DNA of 36,965 nucleotides from Candidatus Poribacteria bacterium. GTDB taxonomy: Bacteria; Poribacteria; WGA-4E; WGA-3G. The DNA lies in NCBI GenBank assembly GCA_009843785.1, contig VYCT01000233.1, forward strand, positions 1 to 36,965, read 5' to 3'. Positions 9,095 through 22,124 of the stretch are shown here, piece after piece (position 1 is the stretch's first letter; each line of letters starts with the position of its first letter). Both the position numbers and the translations under genes were made by a program. The notes under the pieces are model-generated. The model had not been told where the DNA came from, searched no databases, and was given only the letters and a program-made list of their open reading frames with translations.

Positions 9095-12000
9095 ATGAAA
9101 AATGACGATGTTCAACTCATCCAACGCGTTCTTGAAGGCGACGATGATGCCTTCTCTGTGCTCGTGAGAAAATACCAGAAGCAGGTGCACGCACTGGCAT
9201 GGCGGAAAATCGGGGATTTCCACATCGCAGAAGAAATTACACAAGATACGTTCCTGAAAGCATACAAGAAACTCGCAACACTCAAGGAACCGCAGCGTTT
9301 TGACAGCTGGCTTTATGTCATCGCTGCGAATCGTTGTAGTTCGTGGCTCCGAAAAAAGCGGGTCTGGACGCAGCCACTCGAGAAAATTGAGGAGACAAAC
9401 AACGCGCATATCCAAACAGGCACGTATTCCGGATACGTCGCCGCAGAAAACGAGCGCACAACCGCAGAGGCACAGCGCGATGTCGTCAAAAAGTTGCTCG
9501 CGAGACTGCAAGAGAGCGAACGCACGGTCATCACCCTCCACTACTTTGGTGAAATGTCCTGCACAGAGATCGGCACGTTTCTGGGGGTATCCGCAAACAC
9601 GATTAAGAGCCGCCTCCGCCGCGCACAGCAGCGGTTAAAAAAAGAAGAACCGATGATTCGAGAGGCGTTAGATAACTTCAAAATCACGCCGAATCTCACA
9701 GAGAATATTATGCGAGAAGTCGCTCGCATTAAACCCACCGCACCCTCTGGTGGTAAACCCTTCATGCCGTGGGCAATCGCAGCTTCTACAGTTGCCGTGG
9801 TGCTGCTAATGTTGGGTATTGGAAATCAGCAACACGCAATCCGTTTCCAACAACCCTATAGTCTCGATGCCGCATCGGAAATGACCGTTGAACTCATTGA
9901 AGCACCCGTCGTGCTGAACATCGCATCAAAACCCGATGTACGAACGCAGATCGGCAGCACCAACACACCGAATAAAAGCAGCAAATCTGAACAACCATCT
10001 AAGGATACCCAAGCATTCGTCACAGAAGCACACGCTGATGAACTTGTCGATGATTACACAAAATGGCAACTCCCCAAAGAGGCAAAAGCGCGCCTTGGAA
10101 AAGGCGGAATTAATAACCTGCAATTTTCGCCGGATGGCACACAACTCGCTGTCGGCAGTAATATCGGCATCTGGCTCTACGATGTAGAGACAGGAAAAGA
10201 GATTAATATGTTCCCCGGTGTATGTCAGTCCATCGCATTTTCACTCGATGGGCGACTCATCGCCAGTGGCGGCCCCAGATTTCAGTTGTGGGAGATAACT
10301 ACCGGCCAGGAAATTTCACACATTGAAAAATTTCGCCTTGCTGTAGCATTACACTTCTCTGAAGATAGCAAAACAATTATCGGTTTGGACCACGGGAAAG
10401 ATACCATTGTCAGGTTAGATGTTGAAACGGGGAAGAGGCATGTGAAAAAAATCAAGGAAATGGCAACGCGGACAACAGGTTCGTCTCTAATCTACGCGCT
10501 CACAGCGGGTAAATTTGTAGTTGGCAGACAGGACGGAAAGATCGATCTGGGAAACACAACAACTGGGAAAAAATTAGCAACAATCAGCGGACATACAGGC
10601 GGAATCAAGGAACGGTTACCCCCCGCAGCAGATGAGGAGATCCCACCAGCAGGAGAGATTCAGTGGCAGTTTTCAGACGGTACCCCTAACTCCGTGTTAG
10701 CCTTAGCATTTTCACCCGATGGCACAAAACTCGCCAGTGGAAGTAAAGATAAAACGGTGCGATTATGGGATACTTTCACCAACGACGAATTGGTTACCCT
10801 CCGAAAACATACAGGCCCGACAAACGCTTTAGCATTCTCACCCGATGGAAAAATGCTCGCAAGCGGGAGCACCGATAAGACCGTCCAGCTATGGGATACG
10901 GCGACTGGCGCGCACCTTGCGACGTTCACCAAGCATAGAAGAGGTATCGCGGCATTAGCGTTTTCACCAGACGGACGGACCCTCGCAAGTGGAAGTATGG
11001 ACGGCACAATTCGGTTCTGGAACACAACTACCAGAACGTTGCTACCGATCCATCTCACAGAACACACAGACTGGGTGAAAGCCGTTTCCTTTCTTGAGAA
11101 CGATACCACGCTGGCAAGCGTTGCGTTTAACGGGGTAATTACCTTTTGGGACCTGAAGACCTCCGCAAAAACCGGGGTACAAACGGTAGGGCCTCCGGAT
11201 TTTTTATTGGCTTCAGCGTTTTCACCCGATGGAACCAAACTCGTTAGCACGGGTGCAAAATCCGCCACATCCGTCAACGTAGGTGCCGGTAAAGTTCTTA
11301 CCACGCGGGAGCCGGATCATCTGGTCCGTCTGACGGATGTTCGCACAGGACGTGAATTAGCGACCCAAACAAAGACAGTTGGCGGAATTAATGAAGACAT
11401 CGGTATGGCTTTTTCGCCTGACGGAAAAATGGTAGCCTTCCACGGTTCGGGTAGGATTCATGTATGGCAGACAGAAACGAGGGATATTCTTACTATTCCA
11501 CTCGTAGAACAAAATACTGATGACGCGATGGTCGATCAGCACATAAGGGCTCTGCTGCTAAACGAAGTCACAGTTCTGATGTTCTCACCAGATGGCAAAA
11601 AACTTGTTAGTGGAACCATGGGCGGAAAGGTTCAGATGTGGGACGCTGAAACCGGTGCTGAGTTAGCCCCCTTCTTCGCAGGGCAGGAGGCGAATGATCA
11701 GGAGGGACATGGCGGTCTTAACGTGAGATATGAAGATCGGATTACAGCGTTGGCGTTCTCCTCAAATGGAAGATTACTCGCTGTCGGAAGTCAACAAAAA
11801 ATTCGTTTGTTGGGCAGCAGTAAGCAGCCCCGCCTTAAAGATGTACCATACTGGACGCAATCGTTAGCCTTCTCACCCGATGACACTGTCCTCGTTGCAG
11901 GACTTATAAATGGCAGAATCGAATTATTTGATATGACAACTGGCGAAAAAATTACCACCCTCAATGGACATGCGCAATCCGTAGAAACGTTGGCATTTTC

Positions 12001-12103
12001 ACCCGATGCAAAGACGCTTGTTAGTACCGGACAAGACGGAACCATACTTCTATGGGATTGGAATAAAATCCTACAAGGTTTGCATGGCACCAAAAAACAG
12101 TGA
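9095..12103 (+). CDS. ECF sigma factor fused through a membrane segment to a WD40 propeller
   Basis: A 1002-residue fusion with a strong GGAGG ribosome site. Residues 8-85 form sigma region 2 (EEITQDTFLKAYKKL, then FDSWLYVIAANR). Residues 130-185 form region 4, with helix-turn-helix MSCTEIGTFLGVSANTIKSR. One membrane helix follows at about 224-243 (PWAIAASTVAVVLLMLGIG), then a low-complexity linker to about 320, then at least ten WD40-like repeats with FSPDG...LASGS...VRLWD signatures to the C-terminus. The simplest topology puts the sigma module in the cytoplasm and the propeller outside, so ligand binding could control release or activity of the sigma part. No separate anti-sigma gene is next to it. 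The next gene is a secreted paralogue of the propeller. The fusion is read continuously, with no frameshift. Confidence 0.9.
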   Translation: MKNDDVQLIQRVLEGDDDAFSVLVRKYQKQVHALAWRKIGDFHIAEEITQDTFLKAYKKLATLKEPQRFDSWLYVIAANRCSSWLRKKRVWTQPLEKIEETNNAHIQTGTYSGYVAAENERTTAEAQRDVVKKLLARLQESERTVITLHYFGEMSCTEIGTFLGVSANTIKSRLRRAQQRLKKEEPMIREALDNFKITPNLTENIMREVARIKPTAPSGGKPFMPWAIAASTVAVVLLMLGIGNQQHAIRFQQPYSLDAASEMTVELIEAPVVLNIASKPDVRTQIGSTNTPNKSSKSEQPSKDTQAFVTEAHADELVDDYTKWQLPKEAKARLGKGGINNLQFSPDGTQLAVGSNIGIWLYDVETGKEINMFPGVCQSIAFSLDGRLIASGGPRFQLWEITTGQEISHIEKFRLAVALHFSEDSKTIIGLDHGKDTIVRLDVETGKRHVKKIKEMATRTTGSSLIYALTAGKFVVGRQDGKIDLGNTTTGKKLATISGHTGGIKERLPPAADEEIPPAGEIQWQFSDGTPNSVLALAFSPDGTKLASGSKDKTVRLWDTFTNDELVTLRKHTGPTNALAFSPDGKMLASGSTDKTVQLWDTATGAHLATFTKHRRGIAALAFSPDGRTLASGSMDGTIRFWNTTTRTLLPIHLTEHTDWVKAVSFLENDTTLASVAFNGVITFWDLKTSAKTGVQTVGPPDFLLASAFSPDGTKLVSTGAKSATSVNVGAGKVLTTREPDHLVRLTDVRTGRELATQTKTVGGINEDIGMAFSPDGKMVAFHGSGRIHVWQTETRDILTIPLVEQNTDDAMVDQHIRALLLNEVTVLMFSPDGKKLVSGTMGGKVQMWDAETGAELAPFFAGQEANDQEGHGGLNVRYEDRITALAFSSNGRLLAVGSQQKIRLLGSSKQPRLKDVPYWTQSLAFSPDDTVLVAGLINGRIELFDMTTGEKITTLNGHAQSVETLAFSPDAKTLVSTGQDGTILLWDWNKILQGLHGTKKQ

Positions 12104-12133
12104 CCAGCACTGTCAAAACAGCCCACATCTACG

Positions 12134-12163
12134 TGGCAATCTTCCGCTCTAATGGTGTATAAT
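12134..12163 (+). promoter_or_regulatory. Possible promoter for the secreted WD40 gene
   Basis: TATAAT (12158-12163) is a perfect -10 hexamer. TGGCAA, 18 bp upstream (12134-12139), is a fair -35. It lies in the 142-nt gap after the sigma-WD40 stop, so the paralogue may be transcribed independently as well as by read-through. Confidence 0.35.
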
Positions 12164-12245
12164 TAATTTTACACTTAATGTGCGTCTAACATAAACGTGT
12201 GTCTTCTACAATATCTCTGATTCAAAAACACGAGCGGAGGAAATA

Positions 12246-14429
12246 ATGGATAGGTTTTATAGGGTTCTACTAATATCTACACTGCTAATCGGCTCGACTG
12301 TATTCGCAGCGGAAGCACAAAAAGACCAAGCAACCGAAAATTATACAAAGTGGCAACTCCCCAAAGCAGCGAAAGCACGATTCGGAAAAGGTGGCATTAA
12401 TGCCATTCAATTCTCACCAGACGGCACACAAATCGCTGTCGCAAGCAGCATCGGTATATGGATTTACGATCTAAAAACTGGAAAAGAGGTTGACATGTTA
12501 CCGGGGATGTCTCAAGCCATCGCATTTTCACCCGATGGCAGATTCATCGCAAGTAGTAGCGGAATGTTAACGCCTCGTGGCGGAGGACTTCAGTTGTGGA
12601 AAACAGCCACAAATCAGAAATTGGAACTTATTGATGCTCCTTTTCCAGCAGCAGTGTTGCATTTATCTGATAATGGAAAAACACTTACCGGTTTGAATAG
12701 CTGGGCGAATGCAATTAATTGGTTGGATATTGAGACCGGACAGAGAAATGTGAAGAATATCGACGATCGTTCTTTTGAAAAGATAGGGGGTAGATATAGC
12801 CCAGAACCCTACGCACTCACAGACGATAAATTTGCCATTGGCACTCAAACTGGAAAGATTGAATTGTGGAGCACAACAACTGGTCAAAAACTGTCTACCC
12901 TCAGCGGTCATGGCGGCCCATTGCCGGCAGTAGATAGAGAGATAGTAGTTCCAGAGGATGTTCACGAGCAGATGTTTTTCCCGGACGCGGGTGTTCACGT
13001 GTTAATCTTGGAATTTTCGCCAGATGGCAACACGCTCGCAAGCGGCAGCGAAGATAAAACTGTCCGATTATGGGATACTGACACGCACGAAGAATTGGCT
13101 ATCCTCCAAAAGCACACAGGATGGATAAATGCATTAGCCTTCTCTTCCGATGGGAAAAGACTCGCAAGTGGAAGTACCGACAAAACAGTAAATCTATGGG
13201 ATACCGACACAGGCGAACTGATTACGACACTCACAGAACATCTAAACGGGATTATCGCCCTATCATTTTCACCTGATGGCAGCACGCTTGCAAGTGGCAG
13301 CACGGATGGAACAATCAAGTTCTGGAACACTGAAACTGGAGAATTGCTACCTATTAGCATTACAGAGCATACGAAGTGGGTTAAAGCGGTGTCCTTCTCT
13401 GAAGATAGCTCCACGCTCATAAGTGTCGCATTTAACGGCATCATTGACTTTTGGGACCTGAACACATGTCAAAAAACCGGCTCCCAAAATGCTGTACATA
13501 GGGATTTATTGCGAGGTTCAGCACTTTCACCGGACGGAACAAAACTCGCAAGCGTCGGCGCAAAAGCCACTATGTTCTTTGAGGCAGGCGGTTCAGATGC
13601 GCTCCTCTTGACACAAATGGCGGATCGACGGGTTCGGCTGACGGAGACGAGGACAGGACGTGAATTAGCAACCTTAGATGAGACAGATGGTGTAATGAAT
13701 GCAGGCAACAGTATGGCTTTTTCGCCTGATGGAAAAACAGTTGCTTTTGATAGTTCGGGTAAAATTTATGTATGGAATATAGAGACAGGGAACAGCATTA
13801 GCGTTTCGCTTATAGATGAAGAAAAGGTTCCAGAAAACCCAAACAATGCCGATGGAAACGGTGATTTTGCATTCCCACAAGGCATGATGCCCCATCGTGT
13901 TATACCTTCCATCAGTGCTTTGGTGTTTTCCCCTGACGGAAAGAAACTTATCAGTGGAAACATGGGTGGGAAAGTACAGATGTGGAGTGCTGAAACTGGT
14001 GTCGCGTTAGCTCCTTTTCTTGCGGGACAGGATATGGAGAAGGCTGTAAAAGGCGGCCCCGGTAATTTTACTGTCACATATCATGATAGTGTTGGGGCAC
14101 TCGCATTCTCTTCAAAAAGCACGTTGCTCGCTGTCGGAAGCGAAGAAAAAATCCGTTTGTTGGGGAGCAGCAAGCAGCCGCCTCTTAAAAATGCACCACG
14201 CGGTGCCCAATCGTTAGCGTTTGCAACCGATGATACTGTTCTCCTTGCAGGATTTAGAAACGGTAGCATTGAATTATTCGATATGACAACTGGCGAAAAA
14301 ATCAGAACGCTTAATGGACATACTGCAACAGTAGAGACGTTAATCTTTTCACCCGATGGTAAAACGCTTGTTAGCACAGGGCAGGATGGCACGATTCTCG
14401 CCTGGGATTGGGAGGAAGCCGTTAAATAG
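12246..14429 (+). CDS. Secreted WD40 repeat protein, paralogue of the sigma-fused propeller
   Basis: A 727-residue protein with a GGAGG site and a Sec signal peptide (residues 1-22: basic start, LLISTLLIGSTVFA, then AEA). From residue 33 it aligns almost end to end with residues 320-1000 of the preceding sigma fusion: YTKWQLPKxAKARxGKGGIN at the start, SGHGGPLPA or SGHTGGIKE in the middle, and LVSTGQDGTIL near the end. It is the same propeller without the sigma module and membrane anchor, evidently from a tandem gene duplication followed by exchange or loss of the N-terminus. It should be exported, most likely to the periplasm. A decoy, co-receptor or ligand-presenting role is inference. Confidence 0.88.
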   Translation: MDRFYRVLLISTLLIGSTVFAAEAQKDQATENYTKWQLPKAAKARFGKGGINAIQFSPDGTQIAVASSIGIWIYDLKTGKEVDMLPGMSQAIAFSPDGRFIASSSGMLTPRGGGLQLWKTATNQKLELIDAPFPAAVLHLSDNGKTLTGLNSWANAINWLDIETGQRNVKNIDDRSFEKIGGRYSPEPYALTDDKFAIGTQTGKIELWSTTTGQKLSTLSGHGGPLPAVDREIVVPEDVHEQMFFPDAGVHVLILEFSPDGNTLASGSEDKTVRLWDTDTHEELAILQKHTGWINALAFSSDGKRLASGSTDKTVNLWDTDTGELITTLTEHLNGIIALSFSPDGSTLASGSTDGTIKFWNTETGELLPISITEHTKWVKAVSFSEDSSTLISVAFNGIIDFWDLNTCQKTGSQNAVHRDLLRGSALSPDGTKLASVGAKATMFFEAGGSDALLLTQMADRRVRLTETRTGRELATLDETDGVMNAGNSMAFSPDGKTVAFDSSGKIYVWNIETGNSISVSLIDEEKVPENPNNADGNGDFAFPQGMMPHRVIPSISALVFSPDGKKLISGNMGGKVQMWSAETGVALAPFLAGQDMEKAVKGGPGNFTVTYHDSVGALAFSSKSTLLAVGSEEKIRLLGSSKQPPLKNAPRGAQSLAFATDDTVLLAGFRNGSIELFDMTTGEKIRTLNGHTATVETLIFSPDGKTLVSTGQDGTILAWDWEEAVK

Positions 14430-14502
14430 TTTTCAGCTTTCAGCTTTCAGTTACAAGAGTCCTCTTAACTGAAAACTGAGTACTGTTAACTGATAACTAT
14501 TA
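14430..14502. repeat. Heptamer palindromic element, copy A (between convergent genes)
   Basis: Left arm: TTCAGCT, TTCAGCT, TTCAGTT. Core: AAGAGTCCTCTT (14455-14466), a palindrome with a TC centre. Right arm: ACTGAAA, ACTGAGT, ACTGTTA, ACTGATA, ACTATTA. The arms are mutually inverted and keep a 7-bp period. The copy fills the whole space between the WD40 stop and the porV stop, so the RNA hairpin might also end transcription from both sides. Confidence 0.7.
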
Positions 14503-15606
14503 AAACCTAATCCGAAGAGACATGCGATGGCTGCCGCCCAATGCTGGGTGGTTCGCAAACGCGTAGTCTAACCCCGCGCCTGCACCCGTGACAAATCGAA
14601 GATTCAAACCAACGCCCGCTGTCAAACGTCGGATCCGTTCAATCCCTTTACGTTCATCAAATCCGATACGCATCGAAAGCAGATCAAAAAGCGTCCATTC
14701 GGCACCGCCATGCAACTCAACGCCGTCTTTGATATAGGTATCCAAAGCCAAGATAAGGGTGCTACGGAAAATGGCAAGTGTGTGTGTCGTTGCAATGCCG
14801 ACTTTCAGGTGCGGCGGTATCGTCTCGGTGTGAGATGTCAGGTCTGATGATGGTTGTGGTGTGTTCCAATAAATTTTCGTCCGAAAAACATCGCTGGCTT
14901 GCAGACCGAGCGTCAACCGATGGGACTTTTCTGGGTTTGTCATCGCAACGAAACCGATGTCTGCACCCCCACCGATGGCGTTTGTTGTCCGATACCCGCT
15001 CATGTAGAGAAGTTTGAGGGTACTACCGAGACGGAGATCAATACCGTGGAAAGAAGGGAGTTTCCAACCAGAAGCCAGAAGGAACGCGTTGTCCGTACTA
15101 TTGAAAGTCCCCACCACTGTCGGACGGTTCGTAGGTCCGACAGGACGCGTGACTATCGGTAGACTGGTGATAGGAATATCGTCAACGCCGACGCGTAGCC
15201 AACTGATACCGATCGCCCCCCGCTTTTTGAGGGGATGGACATAACTCACAAAGTCGTAAGCATCTTGCCCATTGAGCGTGGAATGCATGAAACTGACTTC
15301 GTATCGGGTGAGGTATCCCAATCCCGCGGGATTCCAATAAGCCGCGTAAGCATTGTCACTCAGCGCAGTCCCCGCACCACCCATAGCAAGGGCGCGAGCA
15401 CCGACACCAAGCGTTAAGAAGTCCGCGGTATATTTCGCATCCACAGATGGAATAGTCACCACACAGAACGCTATTATAGATACGACAAAAAGTTTGCCAG
15501 TGTCCCTAAAGTGTTCTAAAGTCCTAAAGTGAGGGAGAGGGTTTTGAATAACTTTAGCACATTTTATGGACTTCAGCACACTTTTAAACTTTGATTTATG
15601 TTTCAT
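14500..15606 (-). CDS. porV: PorV/PorQ-family outer membrane beta-barrel protein
   Basis: A 368-residue protein. After the signal region the mature N-terminus shows the family signature: TADFLTLGVGARALAMGGAG, followed by ALSDNAYAAYWNPAGL. The rest alternates as in a beta-barrel and ends with Phe (MSLRIRF), as many outer-membrane proteins do. In Bacteroidota PorV is the FadL-like shuttle of type IX secretion that hands cargo to the PorU sortase; the gene here lies 26 nt after porU in the same direction, supporting that pairing. The N-terminus is odd: the hydrophobic signal (GKLFVVSIIAFCVVTIPSVDA) is preceded by about 37 basic residues encoded by a repeat-like stretch (15503-15592). PorQ or another UPF0164-type barrel is the main alternative. 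Confidence 0.78.
   Translation of the reverse strand: MKHKSKFKSVLKSIKCAKVIQNPLPHFRTLEHFRDTGKLFVVSIIAFCVVTIPSVDAKYTADFLTLGVGARALAMGGAGTALSDNAYAAYWNPAGLGYLTRYEVSFMHSTLNGQDAYDFVSYVHPLKKRGAIGISWLRVGVDDIPITSLPIVTRPVGPTNRPTVVGTFNSTDNAFLLASGWKLPSFHGIDLRLGSTLKLLYMSGYRTTNAIGGGADIGFVAMTNPEKSHRLTLGLQASDVFRTKIYWNTPQPSSDLTSHTETIPPHLKVGIATTHTLAIFRSTLILALDTYIKDGVELHGGAEWTLFDLLSMRIGFDERKGIERIRRLTAGVGLNLRFVTGAGAGLDYAFANHPALGGSHRMSLRIRF
15503..15592. repeat. Divergent palindromic repeat at the porV N-terminus (copy G)
   Basis: CTAAAGT occurs at 15506, 15516 and 15524 and is opposed by ACTTTAG at 15551 and ACTTCAG at 15570. The architecture is inverted arms of short repeats, as in copies A-F, but the period is 8-10 bp instead of 7 and the unit differs. 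It encodes porV residues of about 6-35. It is less certain than the other copies. Confidence 0.45.
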
Positions 15607-15632
15607 TGTTTTTGGTTATTGGTTGAAAACTA

Positions 15633-18600
15633 TCAACGGAGTTTCATCATTTTGAGTATCTCGGTAATGTCTTTTTCACCTTCACGTTGGATTTTGAGTT
15701 TCGCGTAGTAAACACCATTTGCGACTTCTACCCCATCGGCATCCCGACCATCCCATTCCACCATCAAGAATCCCGGTGTCGCTGGGATAGAGAGTTCCCG
15801 AATCAACCTTCCGCTCAACGTATAAATCTTCACATCAAGCGAGTCAGCCGGTGCCGTTAATTCACATGTGATCGTAGTTTTACGCGGAAATGGGTTTGGA
15901 TAGTTCAAAAACGATAGCAACTGCAAGTCACCGTGAACCCGAAATGTAGTGCGTTTTGTGTCAGTATTCCCATGTACATCGCTCGCCGTCAAGCGGAGTT
16001 CGTACTCCCGGGGTTCAAGTTCCGGCGATGGATATGTCAAAACGAGCTGGTTGGAACCCGGATGATACGTCAACTGATACGCCTCTGGTGCGATAGGTTC
16101 ATACTCTCCGGATACTCTCCCCAACTCTAACAGCAAGGGGCGTGTCAGGTAATCAATCCCACTTGCGTCGGTTAAAGTCGCGCCGATAAGCGGTTCGGGA
16201 TCTGTTGCATCCCCCGGCACGAAGTGCTGCTGGTTACCAATAGTGAGTTGGATATCTGGCGGCACAGTATCATCGCTGTATATGAGCGTGACGGGTCCCA
16301 ACCTGTCGGTTGTTGCCCGAATGATACCGATAGGTCGGGTTTCAAAACTAAATCTATCACCAGGAGTGAAAGGATACTCCCCTTGTGTCAGTTGAAAACG
16401 TAAACCGTAAGGTTCGTAGAAAAACGGTTGTCCGACTGTTCCTCGGAGCGGCAGACCATCGGATCGGGAACGCAAGATCCCCGTCCTTTCACCTTCAACT
16501 TGGAACTCGGTATCTGAAATAAAAAAGACAATCCACCGGTCTTCAGGTATAGTGTTTTTGCTTGGGTGTTTCTGCGCGTCCGGTGAGAGCTCAATGTAAC
16601 TCATCGTACCGCTGCCTCGATTGGTATTTCTGAATCCAGATGGGTACCAGCGTAATTCTTGTTGCGAGGGATCCTCGGTGTCCGTTGCCCCTTCCACTGG
16701 TTGATTGAGCGAAGTAATAGTGAATGCCCAGATATCGCCAAATCTCAAAGGTTGCTCAAAGTCCTGTTCCATGTTAAGCGACAAGCCGTGCCGCCAGTTC
16801 GGATAGTCTAAATTGAAACTGATCAGCTGCTCTGCTGGCGAAATAACTTCCAACGCCTCAAAATCCCGTGAGTCATCGCCGAAAGGTGCGAGCAAGAGTC
16901 GATAGGTTTGAGGTCCAGTGAAAAAGAGGACGTATTTGCCGGTCCGTGTGCCTTCCGGTTGGATACGGACATCATTGAGCCGAGATATGCCAACATTTTC
17001 CGCACTCATGTTTGTCACATGTATGCGTTTCTGTAACGCGCCTGTCGCATCGATCAGCTGCTGAGAGGGGAGTTTTACCCAGTTTCCGAGGGTTGAACTA
17101 AACATATAGACACCCATCTCACGTGCGCGAGCGATGACTGCGGTCTCAATCGTCGATGCAACACCCAACCCATCGGTTACTTCCTCAGCACTTCCTAACA
17201 ATTCTTCGGCGAGCTGGGCACTCAAAGTTCCGAAATCAAAGCTTAAGTCAATTGCCACTGGAGAATCAAGGAGAAGGTCTGTCGGAAACTGTTGGAAACC
17301 ATTTTCATTGAGAAACATGCGTGATTGCCGAGAGTTGAGGGTTCCCAATTCGTAACCATACGCGATCTGTCCGGGAAGCGGCGCACGTTTAGACACATCG
17401 GTAATAGGACTTATAGATGTCCCAGATAAACTTGTTCCTATCGCAGCGAACCTCTGTTTATCCAAAGAACGAATTGAAAGCACAGTTTCCGCGTCCTGCA
17501 GCACGCCGGGCGGTGCAATGACAACACAGTTCCCGTCTAAACTGATAATTTGACGTGCAGCCGTACCGACCACACCCATATTAACAGAGAACCGTCGGTA
17601 AGCGATATTATCCTCTTCTTCGTATTCAAGGACTTCACCAGGCTGATCCGCTTCAGTGTTTGTCGCATCAACGTAGACAAATATGTCGTGTGTACCAAGC
17701 GGTAACGGATCCGTCAAATTTAAAGTCGCAGTTGCGATCGGCAAAGTATTCAGTGGATCGGGTTCATAGACATCTTTCTTTGAAGTTTCCCGTTTCCCGT
17801 TTCCTGTTTCCAGAGAAGAGTCCTCTTTACTGGCCACTGGTAACTGGTTACTGTTAACTGATAACGGTGTGCGCTGTATCCAGTCTTCAGGTCTAATTCG
17901 AGCAGTTCCGAGCGATTTGGCATCACTATCAACAAGCATATCTTCGTCAACATCCGGATTACCCGTAAAAAAAACGACCTCTACAGGGTTCTCTATCTCT
18001 GGTCCCTCGACCTGCACGTCCGCCGACAAATACCACTGCTTCTTTTCAGCGTTGTAGCCGTACCCAATAACATCCTCTCGATCCACCTGCACAACGGAAA
18101 GATTCGGATAAACATAAGGGTAATACTCAAGTCTGTCGCTTGTCGTTAAATTGCCATCTGAATCCGTGATTTTAATCTCGTATCGGACGACGGAACCGTC
18201 TGTCGGGGCGTTTAGCGGCTCAGGCGTTGTCCACCACCCGTTCGCGTTTGTTTTTTCCGCTGTAGCGGGCGGGGGCCCCGGAATGAGCTCTACTTCTTCC
18301 CACTGGCGTGCCGCTAAATTACGCCAGTCCAAGACCACCAAGAGCGATTCTTCTTCTTCATCAGAAATCTGAACAGAAATCCGAAACTTATCATCGCCGA
18401 CCAATTCGGGATGGATATCAAGAATCTTGGGGACATTGACCGTAAAACCGTCGCCACCGACTGCAACAGTTGTGTCGCTTTGTGCATAGTACTCAACATG
18501 CGCGTCTCCACTGGCGATGTTTCGCGGAACAGTAAAAGTCACCTCTGGATAAGCACCGCGACTCACATTAACCGTTTCTATCAAAGGCACATCACCGGTG

Positions 18601-21600
18601 TAGTATTCAACGGGACCGGCAACACCTTGAGAGACAGCTGTCTTCCCTGGAAATAGTGCCTTAATAGTAAGCGTGCCATCAAAATTGGTGTCATTAACAA
18701 ACTGTTTCGTTCGACGCACTGCATCGTAAGTGGCAGTCTGAATGTAACCGGGTGCTATTCGGAGCGTATCCCCTGGGGCAACAGTCTTTGTTTCAATAGT
18801 AGGGCGGATCTCCCCATTCGCGATCGCGATCTGTAAGGCTGGATCCCCAAAAAGGGTGTATTCCATCATGACATCAATCTGACCCGTACCCTCTGTCATC
18901 AAAAGTTCGACCTTTGAGTCAAAACTCAATGGCCCGAGTTGTCGTACATTCCGTTTAAAGACCATATCGAAGATAATACGGTTCAGAGCATCATTGCCGC
19001 TACCGTAAGTGAGGCGCGTAGCACTTAACATGCCGATGATCCCCCCTCTCTCTTTGCGCAACAACTTTTCTGCCATGCTCGGTTCACCCGGTTTATCAAA
19101 ATAACCGTTGTAACAACTCAGGACTAACATGAAAGGAATCTTGTCAGTTTCCTCCACCTGATCAACAGATACATTGTCAAAAATGATTTCGTGTGCCCAG
19201 ACGGTATTCCCGCCGTGTCCGGCATACTGTGCTATGACAGCTCCCTCCCCAAGCGATTCAATTATCATATCCTTAGCGATGCGTTGCGGGTGGAGCCCCG
19301 GAAACTCATCAGGTTTCGCCTCAACCTCGTCGGTAATATCTTCAAGGAAAATTTCGACGGTTTCGTAACCTAAGCGGGTGTGATCTTTCGCGATTTCGTC
19401 GAGACTCTTTTTAAAAATAAAATCCCCAGAGTTGCTAACTTCGTCATCAGCGACGGAGATAATTCTTCGCCGCCAGTCTCCATTCGGCGGTGCCTGCTCG
19501 TAAGCCAAAATTTTATCAACAACCGCCTCAGCTTGGTTAACGGTTTCAACGCTGAGTCTGCCAATATACATGTCGGTGAATTCATCGTGTCCGGAGACGG
19601 TAACATACCAGTGATCTGACGCGGTTCGTCCGAAGGAGTCGGTTCGGATGTAGTGTGTCGGAATGTAACCATCAAGCTCTGGCGGCTCAGCGTGAATTTT
19701 GGTATTAATACCGCGAAAATCGTAGGTGCCGTCGCCAAAGAGGACAACGTAAGTGGGGGCAGGTAGTGTCCAAGATTGATACGCGTGCGTCAGGAAATCT
19801 TTGATCGCTTTCGGACTGACACCGCCATCACCGTAAGTATTATATATATCGTCGGTTGTTACAACTTTGGTTCGGTATCCACCACCACCAGATGTTTCAC
19901 GCCACCCAGCTAACCGCTCCGCCGCAGCAAGGAATTTTCGATGCGTTATAACCACATAATCTGCCCCGTGTGTTGCAGTCGCTAAGCCCGTGGGTTCGAC
20001 GATTTCAATGTGTTCGGGCTGCCGTAACGCGGTATCAGAGACTGCGATGAACTGTGTTTTACGGGTGTCAGGCACCTGAAAAAGCGCGTTATACGTCCCC
20101 GTACGCGCTATATCCGTCTCTATAGTAAAGCCTCGCAACCGAGCAGTAAGGTATGTACCATCTGTTTCAAATATATGAATACCGGGGTCACGGAACGCCT
20201 CAATTTTGTACTGGAGTTTACGCCCGCCTTGAAGTCGTGTGCGTGAAGTATCATCTTCGGTAGGTGATCTGAACCACAGTTCGTCTGCAACGGCGCGGAA
20301 GAGACGGGTGTACTCGACAGAAAAACGGTTAAGATAAACATGATATGGATAGCGAGTGGTATCTTCATCAACATTATCATCAATGCGTGCAAGAGATAAG
20401 ACGTTCAGCTCGCCTTCTGTGTTATCCTTGAGTGTATCCCAAGTCCGTAAGAACCTTTCAACAGTCAGCGTATCTTGATGTTCCCACTCCGCCACTTCAA
20501 TGCGGATACCGTTGACAGAGACTAAAATATGATGTGGAACTGGTGTACCACCTTGTAAGTCAACAGAGATATGTGACGGATCGAAACTTTTTGCGACATC
20601 ATACAACGGAAATTCGAGACGCATTTCGGCGGCATCGCCCCCATTCTTGATACCGTCCCAGTACCAGAAATCATTTTCCGCAAACCACTTGTGTTTATCG
20701 TCGCTGTAGACAAATTCAAGGTTATTTGTTAGGTGATCCTCTTCAAAACTTACCTTAGAGCGAAAAGTGGGAACTTGCGTCGCCGTTGGGTCCGTTGGAC
20801 TGGCAGTCAGCTGCGGTACCCGCGTGCGGACACGGTTGTCGTCAAGTGTTAGCCAATAGATGTTCCAACGGCTATAAGGATTTTTCGGCTTATGTCCAAG
20901 AAAAAAGATAGCATCTCCGGGATCGAACCTCCCGTCTTCTGCGCCGGTGATATAGATAGGAATATCTCTGTTTCCTTGTGTTACGCGAAACCTTGCTGGG
21001 TTTGTACCGGTGAGTTCGACACCCCAATCGCGCGCGAGGGATTCTGCTGTTACGGCATAGATACCCGTTTCTCTGACGAACAACTTATAGCGTGGATTTC
21101 CATCATCGCCGTTAGAAACAAGTGTCGGTGCCGCAGGCACGAGTGGACGCGGTGCCCGAAAACGCGCAGCTTGCTCAGCATTGAGGAGTTGATGCGACAA
21201 GGCGCGTTCAAAAGCTTCTGATTCTAAAAAGTTGCCAGTTCTCAGTTGCCGGTCGTCAGTTAAAGAGGACCCCGATTCAGACAAGCTACCTCTTAACTGA
21301 AAACTGTTAACTGATGACTGACGACTATAAGAAAAACGGATGTTCACTGTGAAACGGGAATACAGACGCAACTGTCGGGTTTTTGGGAAATACTGTACAG
21401 GATATAACGCCAGCGCGATGACACGTTGACTGCGAATAGAACCCTCTCTGACAACACGAGCAAGCGGCAGTCCGGGGTATGACGGGTTTCCGGTATTCGA
21501 CTGATATGCACTTCCACGCTCCACCCAACGTTGCGATGCTGAGTGCTCGGAGTTGGATGCCTGCACATCGAAAATTGAGACAGGTACAAGACGCACACCA

Positions 21601-21962
21601 GAACGGGTCTCGGCAGGCGCAGCCGAAACATTGACCGCCTCAATCGTAGCCGTCGCGGGTATACCGAGCATAAGGCGCGTGACAGGAACTTTCGGATTAC
21701 CGGGGTCAGTGGTGAAGTGACAGTCGGCGTAATGTGCCTCGTGATAGCGAACATTGTCTCGGACTGCTTCAGAGATAGTGAGTTCAGGTAAGGTGAACTG
21801 AAGCGTGATGCCTTCGGCTGATGTAGATTGCGTGACACGCGCAGATACGTTGGAAGACCATAGAAAAAAGAAGAGAACAGGGATGCATAGCATGACACTG
21901 AGTCGCAATCTGGTGTGCACCGGTTTGTTCTTCTCTTTGGTGTTTTTTGAGAATAATTGCAT
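15633..21962 (-). CDS. porU: PorU-like C25 (gingipain-family) sortase, 2109 residues
   Basis: A signal anchor (about residues 20-42) is followed by a C25-type prodomain. The C25 peptidase domain spans roughly 660-1020: LFGDGTYDFRG, catalytic His916 in YAGHGGNT and catalytic Cys950 in LVLSCYNGY, spaced as in gingipains. A long chain of beta-rich modules follows. The last 80 residues (NYPNPF, LSGRLIREL, WDGRDADGxEVANGVYYAKL) form an FlgD-like or type A C-terminal sorting-type domain. PorU removes C-terminal signals from type IX cargo and attaches it to the surface. Bacteroidota PorU is about 1100-1300 residues, so this one is unusually large. It lies 26 nt upstream of porV. Two in-frame repeat elements are embedded at residues of about 211-244 and 1365-1394. 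A self-secreted C25 protease is the alternative. No Shine-Dalgarno site is visible before the ATG. Confidence 0.8.
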   Translation of the reverse strand: MQLFSKNTKEKNKPVHTRLRLSVMLCIPVLFFFLWSSNVSARVTQSTSAEGITLQFTLPELTISEAVRDNVRYHEAHYADCHFTTDPGNPKVPVTRLMLGIPATATIEAVNVSAAPAETRSGVRLVPVSIFDVQASNSEHSASQRWVERGSAYQSNTGNPSYPGLPLARVVREGSIRSQRVIALALYPVQYFPKTRQLRLYSRFTVNIRFSYSRQSSVNSFQLRGSLSESGSSLTDDRQLRTGNFLESEAFERALSHQLLNAEQAARFRAPRPLVPAAPTLVSNGDDGNPRYKLFVRETGIYAVTAESLARDWGVELTGTNPARFRVTQGNRDIPIYITGAEDGRFDPGDAIFFLGHKPKNPYSRWNIYWLTLDDNRVRTRVPQLTASPTDPTATQVPTFRSKVSFEEDHLTNNLEFVYSDDKHKWFAENDFWYWDGIKNGGDAAEMRLEFPLYDVAKSFDPSHISVDLQGGTPVPHHILVSVNGIRIEVAEWEHQDTLTVERFLRTWDTLKDNTEGELNVLSLARIDDNVDEDTTRYPYHVYLNRFSVEYTRLFRAVADELWFRSPTEDDTSRTRLQGGRKLQYKIEAFRDPGIHIFETDGTYLTARLRGFTIETDIARTGTYNALFQVPDTRKTQFIAVSDTALRQPEHIEIVEPTGLATATHGADYVVITHRKFLAAAERLAGWRETSGGGGYRTKVVTTDDIYNTYGDGGVSPKAIKDFLTHAYQSWTLPAPTYVVLFGDGTYDFRGINTKIHAEPPELDGYIPTHYIRTDSFGRTASDHWYVTVSGHDEFTDMYIGRLSVETVNQAEAVVDKILAYEQAPPNGDWRRRIISVADDEVSNSGDFIFKKSLDEIAKDHTRLGYETVEIFLEDITDEVEAKPDEFPGLHPQRIAKDMIIESLGEGAVIAQYAGHGGNTVWAHEIIFDNVSVDQVEETDKIPFMLVLSCYNGYFDKPGEPSMAEKLLRKERGGIIGMLSATRLTYGSGNDALNRIIFDMVFKRNVRQLGPLSFDSKVELLMTEGTGQIDVMMEYTLFGDPALQIAIANGEIRPTIETKTVAPGDTLRIAPGYIQTATYDAVRRTKQFVNDTNFDGTLTIKALFPGKTAVSQGVAGPVEYYTGDVPLIETVNVSRGAYPEVTFTVPRNIASGDAHVEYYAQSDTTVAVGGDGFTVNVPKILDIHPELVGDDKFRISVQISDEEEESLLVVLDWRNLAARQWEEVELIPGPPPATAEKTNANGWWTTPEPLNAPTDGSVVRYEIKITDSDGNLTTSDRLEYYPYVYPNLSVVQVDREDVIGYGYNAEKKQWYLSADVQVEGPEIENPVEVVFFTGNPDVDEDMLVDSDAKSLGTARIRPEDWIQRTPLSVNSNQLPVASKEDSSLETGNGKRETSKKDVYEPDPLNTLPIATATLNLTDPLPLGTHDIFVYVDATNTEADQPGEVLEYEEEDNIAYRRFSVNMGVVGTAARQIISLDGNCVVIAPPGVLQDAETVLSIRSLDKQRFAAIGTSLSGTSISPITDVSKRAPLPGQIAYGYELGTLNSRQSRMFLNENGFQQFPTDLLLDSPVAIDLSFDFGTLSAQLAEELLGSAEEVTDGLGVASTIETAVIARAREMGVYMFSSTLGNWVKLPSQQLIDATGALQKRIHVTNMSAENVGISRLNDVRIQPEGTRTGKYVLFFTGPQTYRLLLAPFGDDSRDFEALEVISPAEQLISFNLDYPNWRHGLSLNMEQDFEQPLRFGDIWAFTITSLNQPVEGATDTEDPSQQELRWYPSGFRNTNRGSGTMSYIELSPDAQKHPSKNTIPEDRWIVFFISDTEFQVEGERTGILRSRSDGLPLRGTVGQPFFYEPYGLRFQLTQGEYPFTPGDRFSFETRPIGIIRATTDRLGPVTLIYSDDTVPPDIQLTIGNQQHFVPGDATDPEPLIGATLTDASGIDYLTRPLLLELGRVSGEYEPIAPEAYQLTYHPGSNQLVLTYPSPELEPREYELRLTASDVHGNTDTKRTTFRVHGDLQLLSFLNYPNPFPRKTTITCELTAPADSLDVKIYTLSGRLIRELSIPATPGFLMVEWDGRDADGVEVANGVYYAKLKIQREGEKDITEILKMMKLR
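17783..17867. repeat. Heptamer palindromic element, copy C (in frame inside porU)
   Basis: On the minus (coding) strand the arm reads CAGTTAA, CAGTAAC, CAGTTAC, CAGTGGC, CAGTAAA, then the core AAGAGGACTCTT, then GGAAACA, GGAAACG, GGAAACG, GGAAACT. The 12-bp core on the plus strand (17816-17827) is identical to copy A. It encodes a hydrophilic Ser/Asn/Lys/Glu-rich stretch (residues of about 1365-1394) between two beta-rich segments. Confidence 0.72.
21231..21330. repeat. Heptamer palindromic element, copy B (in frame inside porU)
   Basis: Plus strand: GCCAGTT, CTCAGTT, GCCGGTC, GTCAGTT, then AAAGAGG, a 20-nt loop and CCTCTTA, then ACTGAAA, ACTGTTA, ACTGATG, ACTGACG, ACTATAA. TCAGTTAAaGAGG pairs with CCTCTTAACTGA (21289-21300) with one bulge. 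It encodes residues of about 211-244, rich in Ser, Gln and Arg, in the prodomain. Confidence 0.72.
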
Positions 21963-21969
21963 TTTTTGT

Positions 21970-22124
21970 TAATTATCAGCCATCAGGCAACGGCTTTCAG
22001 TTTTGGGTTTGCGATTGCTGAATATTTTCCTTTAACGGCGTTAGAAAATTGAAATTGCGAAGGTTACAAAAAGATATCGGTTAATCAGAAACCGAGACTG
22101 AAAACTGATAACCGATAACTTTAA
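21970..22124. repeat. Heptamer palindromic element, copy D (upstream of porU)
   Basis: Left arm: TATCAGC, CATCAGG, CAACGGC, TTTCAGT. Right arm: ACTGAAA (22097-22103), ACTGATA, ACCGATA, ACTTTAA (22118-22124). The interior is about 90 nt and carries no ORF of note. It lies directly upstream of the porU start, so it may form part of the porU leader. Confidence 0.6.

Follow-up and report, generated by a model that had tools for sequence, protein, structure and literature searches.

A lineage-specific heptad palindrome of Candidatus Poribacteria with in-frame copies in a porU-like gene, probably retained at tolerant loops

Protein-coding palindromes are known chiefly from Rickettsia. The Rickettsia palindromic elements (RPE; Ogata 2000/2002), as outlined in PMC10969869, are palindromic repeats of about 100-150 bp lying in frame in unrelated genes, and the title of the 2002 paper, as cited there, presents such palindromes as unique but recurrent in Rickettsia. 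Direct repeats of the heptamer TAACTGA (MacGregor 2015) occur in Beggiatoaceae, Cyanobacteria, and some Bacteroidetes and are mostly intergenic; in reverse orientation they read LSVISYQ, and an RNA polymerase beta-prime-like ORF has one in a surface loop (PMC4679880). In Beggiatoa these repeats are found mostly just upstream of start codons. In-frame copies are mostly at protein ends, and Poribacteria are not among the hosts named in that paper (PMC4679880). The GTAG REPs of the REP/RAYT type, reported from several species, are small palindromes that are mostly intergenic, with some intragenic in frame and sometimes giving stop codons (PMC3733652). PARCEL elements code for amphipathic domains of 25 residues, arranged in tandem, in ORFs to which no function is assigned (PMC2996958).

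The whole stretch of DNA analysed here (the window; 36,965 bases) is one contig of a 6.17-Mb Poribacteria genome. Its longest feature in Table 1 matches Pfam Peptidase_C25 (E=8e-85) together with the propeptide family of Peptidase_C25, and scores 408 bits against the NCBIfam T9SS sortase PorU model, slightly below the cut-off of 420. Assignment to the T9SS is supported by the neighbouring PorV-family gene, and on these sequence matches PorU seems a fair name. Among congeners of this sponge-associated symbiont, PorU orthologues were present in all those searched and contained internal stops in none. Elsewhere in the window, two adjoining WD40-type repeat genes (9095-14429) are 71-77% identical over long stretches and form a tandem duplication.

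Table 1. Genes and repeat copies in the window
Feature	Coordinates	Strand	Details
Host gene: PorU-like C25 peptidase with T9SS-type C-terminal tail	15633..21962	-	2109 codons (2109 aa), unbroken, 0 internal stops
PorV/PorQ-family gene adjoining porU	14500..15606	-	NCBIfam NF033709, 105 bits versus cut-off 90
Copy A, intergenic, between two convergent genes	14427..14499	.	paired-arm scan; hairpin z -3.9
Copy B, in porU, about residues 211-244, predicted translation YSRQSSVNSFQLRGSLSESGSSLTDDRQLRTGN	21229..21330	-	paired-arm scan; hairpin z -5.6
Copy C, in porU, about residues 1366-1393, predicted translation LSVNSNQLPVASKEDSSLETGNGKRET	17783..17867	-	paired-arm scan; five heptads

An earlier note, made from the sequence alone, had described two palindromic elements in frame within porU, and both lie within a few bases of where it had placed them, in an unbroken ORF of 2109 codons. 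Their palindromic character was borne out for copy B, a strong hairpin (z=-5.6), and less so for copy C, which RNA folding showed to be degenerate (z=-1.2). Copy B sits between the propeptide and catalytic domains and copy C between two predicted strands. In the paired-arm scan, copy B extended over 21229-21327. Segment models of PorU by AlphaFold gave pLDDT below 50 over residues 215-287, the region of copy B, and over residues 1367-1401, the region of copy C, where strands lie on both sides; the models were built on about 30 related sequences, and such low confidence is a weak sign of disorder. Structure modelling, which the note had proposed as a check for surface loops, placed B and C in these linker-like stretches and weakly supports flexible loops or linkers at both sites. 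Copy A exactly spans a convergent gap: its terminal heptad contains the TAG stop of the gene that ends at 14429, and its far end coincides with or abuts the stop of the second gene.

The repeat is built of heptad arms that face inward, with (CAGTTNN)n as the left arm and (NNAACTG)n as the right, around an AAGAGG...CCTCTT core. Heptad positions are degenerate, the outer ends are frequently AATAGTT / AACTATT, and the centre varies from 6 to about 60 bases, frequently with AAGAGG at its start and CCTCTT at its end, such that paired elements span about 61-137 bp. A paired-arm scan of the census sample (the window, one 400-kb stretch of genome G005, and 30 sampled G000 loci) yielded 37 paired elements versus none in reversed sequence. 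Genome-wide, TTAACTGATRACTG with at most one mismatch gave 227 matches versus 3 in the reversed control, and the left-arm pattern CAGTTNNCAGTTNNCAGTTAA with at most two mismatches gave 455 versus 0, in agreement with the claim that B and C are members of a repeat family. Motif counts ranged from 14 to 297 per genome across 38 genomes of one Poribacteria genus; outside it they were 0-19 in nearly all other genomes and 26 in one sister genus, with controls at 0-7 per strand. The family is essentially confined to this genus. A longer core pattern, run against a collection covering 84,980 species, matched 33 stretches, 31 of them from Candidatus Poribacteria. No account of the heptad element in Poribacteria was found in a literature search made largely without subscription journals, and the repeat-coded peptides matched no model in NCBIfam, a library that may not hold RPE models.

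The repeat lies mainly outside genes. Gene-internal clusters made up only 3 of 28 in the 400-kb G005 stretch despite gene coverage of 84% (binomial P=4e-17); genic copies are either rare survivors or else insertion avoids genes. Intergenic elements occurred in tandem, divergent, and convergent gaps, following the mix of such gaps in this small sample.

Comparison with relatives gave different histories for the two sites in porU. Site C carries heptads in 1 of the 35 genus genomes having the site, namely the source genome, and in none of the other 34; in G011, the closest relative at 93% identity, the place is taken by a nine-codon linker without heptads. The insert replaced some codons of the linker for a net gain of about 19, which rules out a pure insertion of 30 residues, and judged from this alignment site C is a true gain of heptad sequence. 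Site B, in contrast, is a variable linker in every relative, with heptads in 17 of 36. The two closest species (L032 and L033) have the same copy B, other congeners have differing heptad arrays, some of CAGCAGT type, and about half have no clear heptads and keep a linker of some 20-25 residues. In the heptad-free congeners and in other families this linker is Ser/Thr/Gln-rich and variable, its sequence in other families being different. The site measures 123 nt with heptads versus a median of 96 nt without, a difference of about nine codons. A clean 34-residue addition at site B was ruled out by outgroup alignment, and since relatives without heptads still have the linker, site B is read as a heptad takeover of an old variable linker. 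The added segments of about 30 residues proposed earlier therefore stand as a gain at site C, of smaller net size, and not as a clean addition at site B; the clean absence expected from aligning PorU homologues was likewise seen for the heptads of site C and not for the linker of site B. Conservation of the segment sequence in homologues, which the note would have taken to mean native codons, was found for neither segment.

A second palindrome has used the same place. An unrelated GTAG-type palindrome, complete or partial, lies in frame at site C in four congeners (L033, L035, L038, and L040), in perfect form as GTAGGGGCTGGGTTACCCAGCCCCTAC in L040, and is dispersed at 35 sites in the source genome and 38 in G016 versus 0 in the reversed control. 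Two unrelated palindromes have therefore settled in one linker, each of them in frame. A Y1 (IS200/IS605-type) transposase locus with several CACCCCTACGGGGTG palindromes (L348:850-2060) is a candidate RAYT for the GTAG family. A further palindrome, AAAAGCGGTGGA...TCCACCGCTTTT (L347:1281-1311), lies near a Y1 transposase and abuts heptad arms at two G005 C1 sites 3.8 kb apart (near 3.895 and 3.899 Mb), as if repeat targets repeat. At about PorU residue 1410, one congener clade (L056, L060, and L075-L079) has another insertion of variable sequence, 10-20 residues long (NFPFIGGQPGKANTRG).

Searching with a profile built from the coded peptide brought out in-frame copies in other genes, within long open frames, in many congeners. 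The hosts, a lower bound drawn from the loci listed by the searches (up to 30 each), include at least CarA (carbamoyl-phosphate synthase small subunit), NadB (L-aspartate oxidase), TlyA (an rRNA methyltransferase), a YegS-type lipid kinase, PBP1C, a propeller lipoprotein, and PorU; the identities of CarA, NadB, TlyA, PBP1C, and YegS were confirmed by Pfam/NCBIfam. A spermidine-synthase-like membrane protein and an Omp85-containing protein were additional hosts (Pfam, NCBIfam, and solved relatives). The parallel with Rickettsia drawn in the earlier note is apt and extends beyond porU to TlyA, CarA, NadB, and others. Between fixed anchors, the TlyA segment is 33 residues long in four other-family orthologues, 36-43 in seven congeners, and 53-93 in nineteen, and residues 180-222 stand opposite only 3 residues of the solved relative 3hp7; residues 127-170 of the lipid kinase stand opposite 1 residue of 2qv7. 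CarA is a weaker case of gain than TlyA because its interdomain linker is variable in other families too. At the second site of the propeller lipoprotein, many congeners as well as other families have 63 nt (57 in two), versus 129-159 nt with the element. In a putative lipoprotein (L236:1381-1620), a heptad segment lies near the N-terminus ahead of a signal-like stretch, where the choice of start codon is uncertain.

Several copies appear to have changed after arrival. Identical stretches of 97 and 78 nt at both propeller-gene sites, in two species, point to copying between the sites. In L113 a unit of 36 nt (four heptads plus eight bases), repeated five times in frame, has expanded the array in frame-keeping steps, and in L291 CarA a GTAG-type palindrome is nested in frame within the heptad segment.

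Reading frames bear directly on how genic copies persist. Only 13 of 186 strand-frames of non-coding copies were open (7%), a set to which loci chosen for a stop-containing motif contribute; in the G005 stretch, where no such choice was made, 7 of 54 were open (13%) with the two coding copies left out, and random intergenic 90-mers were open in 26%. Stop-free passage of the coding copies is informative. Copy B is open in only one of six frames, the one used by PorU, and copy C in three of six; together with the rarity of open non-coding copies, this upholds the suggestion that open frames have been selected or filtered. Codon choice within the arms gives a similar picture. Heptad YGN triplets in codon phase comprised 0/31 TGA (by necessity) and 27/31 C-initial triplets, versus 37/80 and 32/80 out of phase (Fisher P=6e-6, a guide only, since orthologous copies are not independent), and in non-coding copies 63% were TGA and 16% C-initial. 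The C-initial excess in phase reads as the mark that loss of stops through T-to-C change would leave.

The reading that we favour, at a probability of roughly 0.8, is that the segments represent copies of a palindromic repeat that is non-autonomous and specific to this lineage, and that in-frame copies survive only at tolerant loops. Sequence comparison supplied the family, its distribution, the in-frame copies, the gain against relatives, the frame bias, and the near-identical copies at two sites of one gene. We infer that the repeat is mobile, that broken copies are lost by purifying selection, and that the segments are translated and disordered. A repeat of about 70-130 bp would spread mainly between genes, and copies landing inside genes would usually be lost because most contain stops or shift the frame. 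A genic copy would persist where its net length is a multiple of three, the frame read is open, and the site is a tolerant loop or linker; its translation would give a disordered segment, rich in Ser/Thr/Gln/Asn and about 20-45 residues long. Copies that survive may afterwards diverge and lose in-frame TGA, commonly to CGA, swap sequence with further copies within their gene, grow in codon-compatible units, and take in other palindromes. A Y1 transposase was considered as mobiliser and found no support, as none of the seven Y1 loci of the source genome has heptad runs. Inverted ends are present; no target-site duplications were identified at heptad copies and a few linker codons are often replaced, so transposition is no more than a candidate mechanism. 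Freely varying arm heptads make turnover of arrays in place possible.

If the segments were instead native variable linkers in which heptads arose in place by short tandem repeat slippage, with no mobile element involved, the old linker at site B and the differing number and sequence of arm heptads among species would be expected, and the L113 expansion demonstrates that arrays do grow in place. We nevertheless consider this improbable. The same inverted two-arm architecture and core recur at many unrelated sites, one-directional slippage cannot yield inverted arms around a shared core, three aligned heptads arise by chance in shuffled segments at 0.001 or less, and in other families there is essentially no linker in TlyA or at the second propeller site. 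Retention of the segments because they benefit the host protein, for instance by serving as surface linkers or a source of variation, seems improbable to the same degree. Heptads in 17 of 26 congeners in TlyA and 12 of 17 in CarA, counted with a strict heptad-run classifier that misses some degenerate copies, have been tolerated over long times, and site C has been occupied by two palindrome families; against usefulness, no peptide is conserved between species at a site, lengths vary widely, the segment is missing from several congeners that give no hint of losing the gene, and the host proteins are functionally unrelated.

Finally, the elements may act as RNA hairpins (terminators or regulators), with coding copies as tolerated by-products. 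Folding was strong in three of the four copies folded (z -3.9, -5.6, and -5.6), and copy A fills a convergent gap. This is the least probable of the three alternatives: intergenic copies, following the gap-type mix, show no clear 3'-end preference in the small sample, in-frame copies deep in genes are left unexplained, and folding of copy C is slight. No conserved RNA family was found, as 14000-22000 gave no Rfam match (that library may not hold RPE models).

Returning to a palindromic repeat retained at tolerant loops, we tentatively suggest, at somewhat less than even odds, that the genus runs a long-lived protein-coding palindrome system. Two unrelated families would time and again fill, leave, and refill the same loops of essential enzymes, their in-frame copies being shaped so as to stay free of stops, and non-coding repeats would thereby keep supplying proteins outside Rickettsia with new segments. 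An unrelated palindrome appears to do an RPE-like job in a sponge-symbiont phylum, in some 38 sequenced species of one genus. This panel, which includes enzymes with solved relatives, makes gain, loss, frame filtering, and structural tolerance of inserts directly measurable and bears on the origin of protein from non-coding DNA.

In sum, the Poribacteria element shares features with several described systems and coincides with none. It has the same tandem heptad as the MacGregor repeats (TAACTGA / TCAGTTA) and is likewise mostly intergenic (PMC4679880); unlike those direct repeats, its arms are inverted around a shared core and its elements lie in tandem, divergent, and convergent gaps. The second palindrome at site C and in L291 CarA has GTAG, as do GTAG REPs (PMC3733652), whereas the heptad element has no GTAG tag (its ends are AATAGTT / AACTATT) and no Y1 transposase was found with heptads. 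Like PARCEL, it is palindromic DNA coding for protein segments and spread within genomes, but its copies are single inserts in conserved enzymes (PMC2996958). Compared with MITEs, it has inverted ends, and target-site duplications and a transposase were not identified. RPE are the closest match: as in the Rickettsia elements (PMC10969869), dispersed palindromes lie in and between genes and add a peptide segment, predicted here, to metabolic proteins. In-frame copies likewise occur in unrelated protein genes, with heptads or extra length missing from orthologues elsewhere. The organism differs, as do the heptad arms with degenerate positions and the variable centre, and the sequence, compared without direct RPE alignment, appears unrelated. 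By this analogy the heptad element appears to be a protein-coding palindrome akin to RPE in its working and unrelated to them in sequence.
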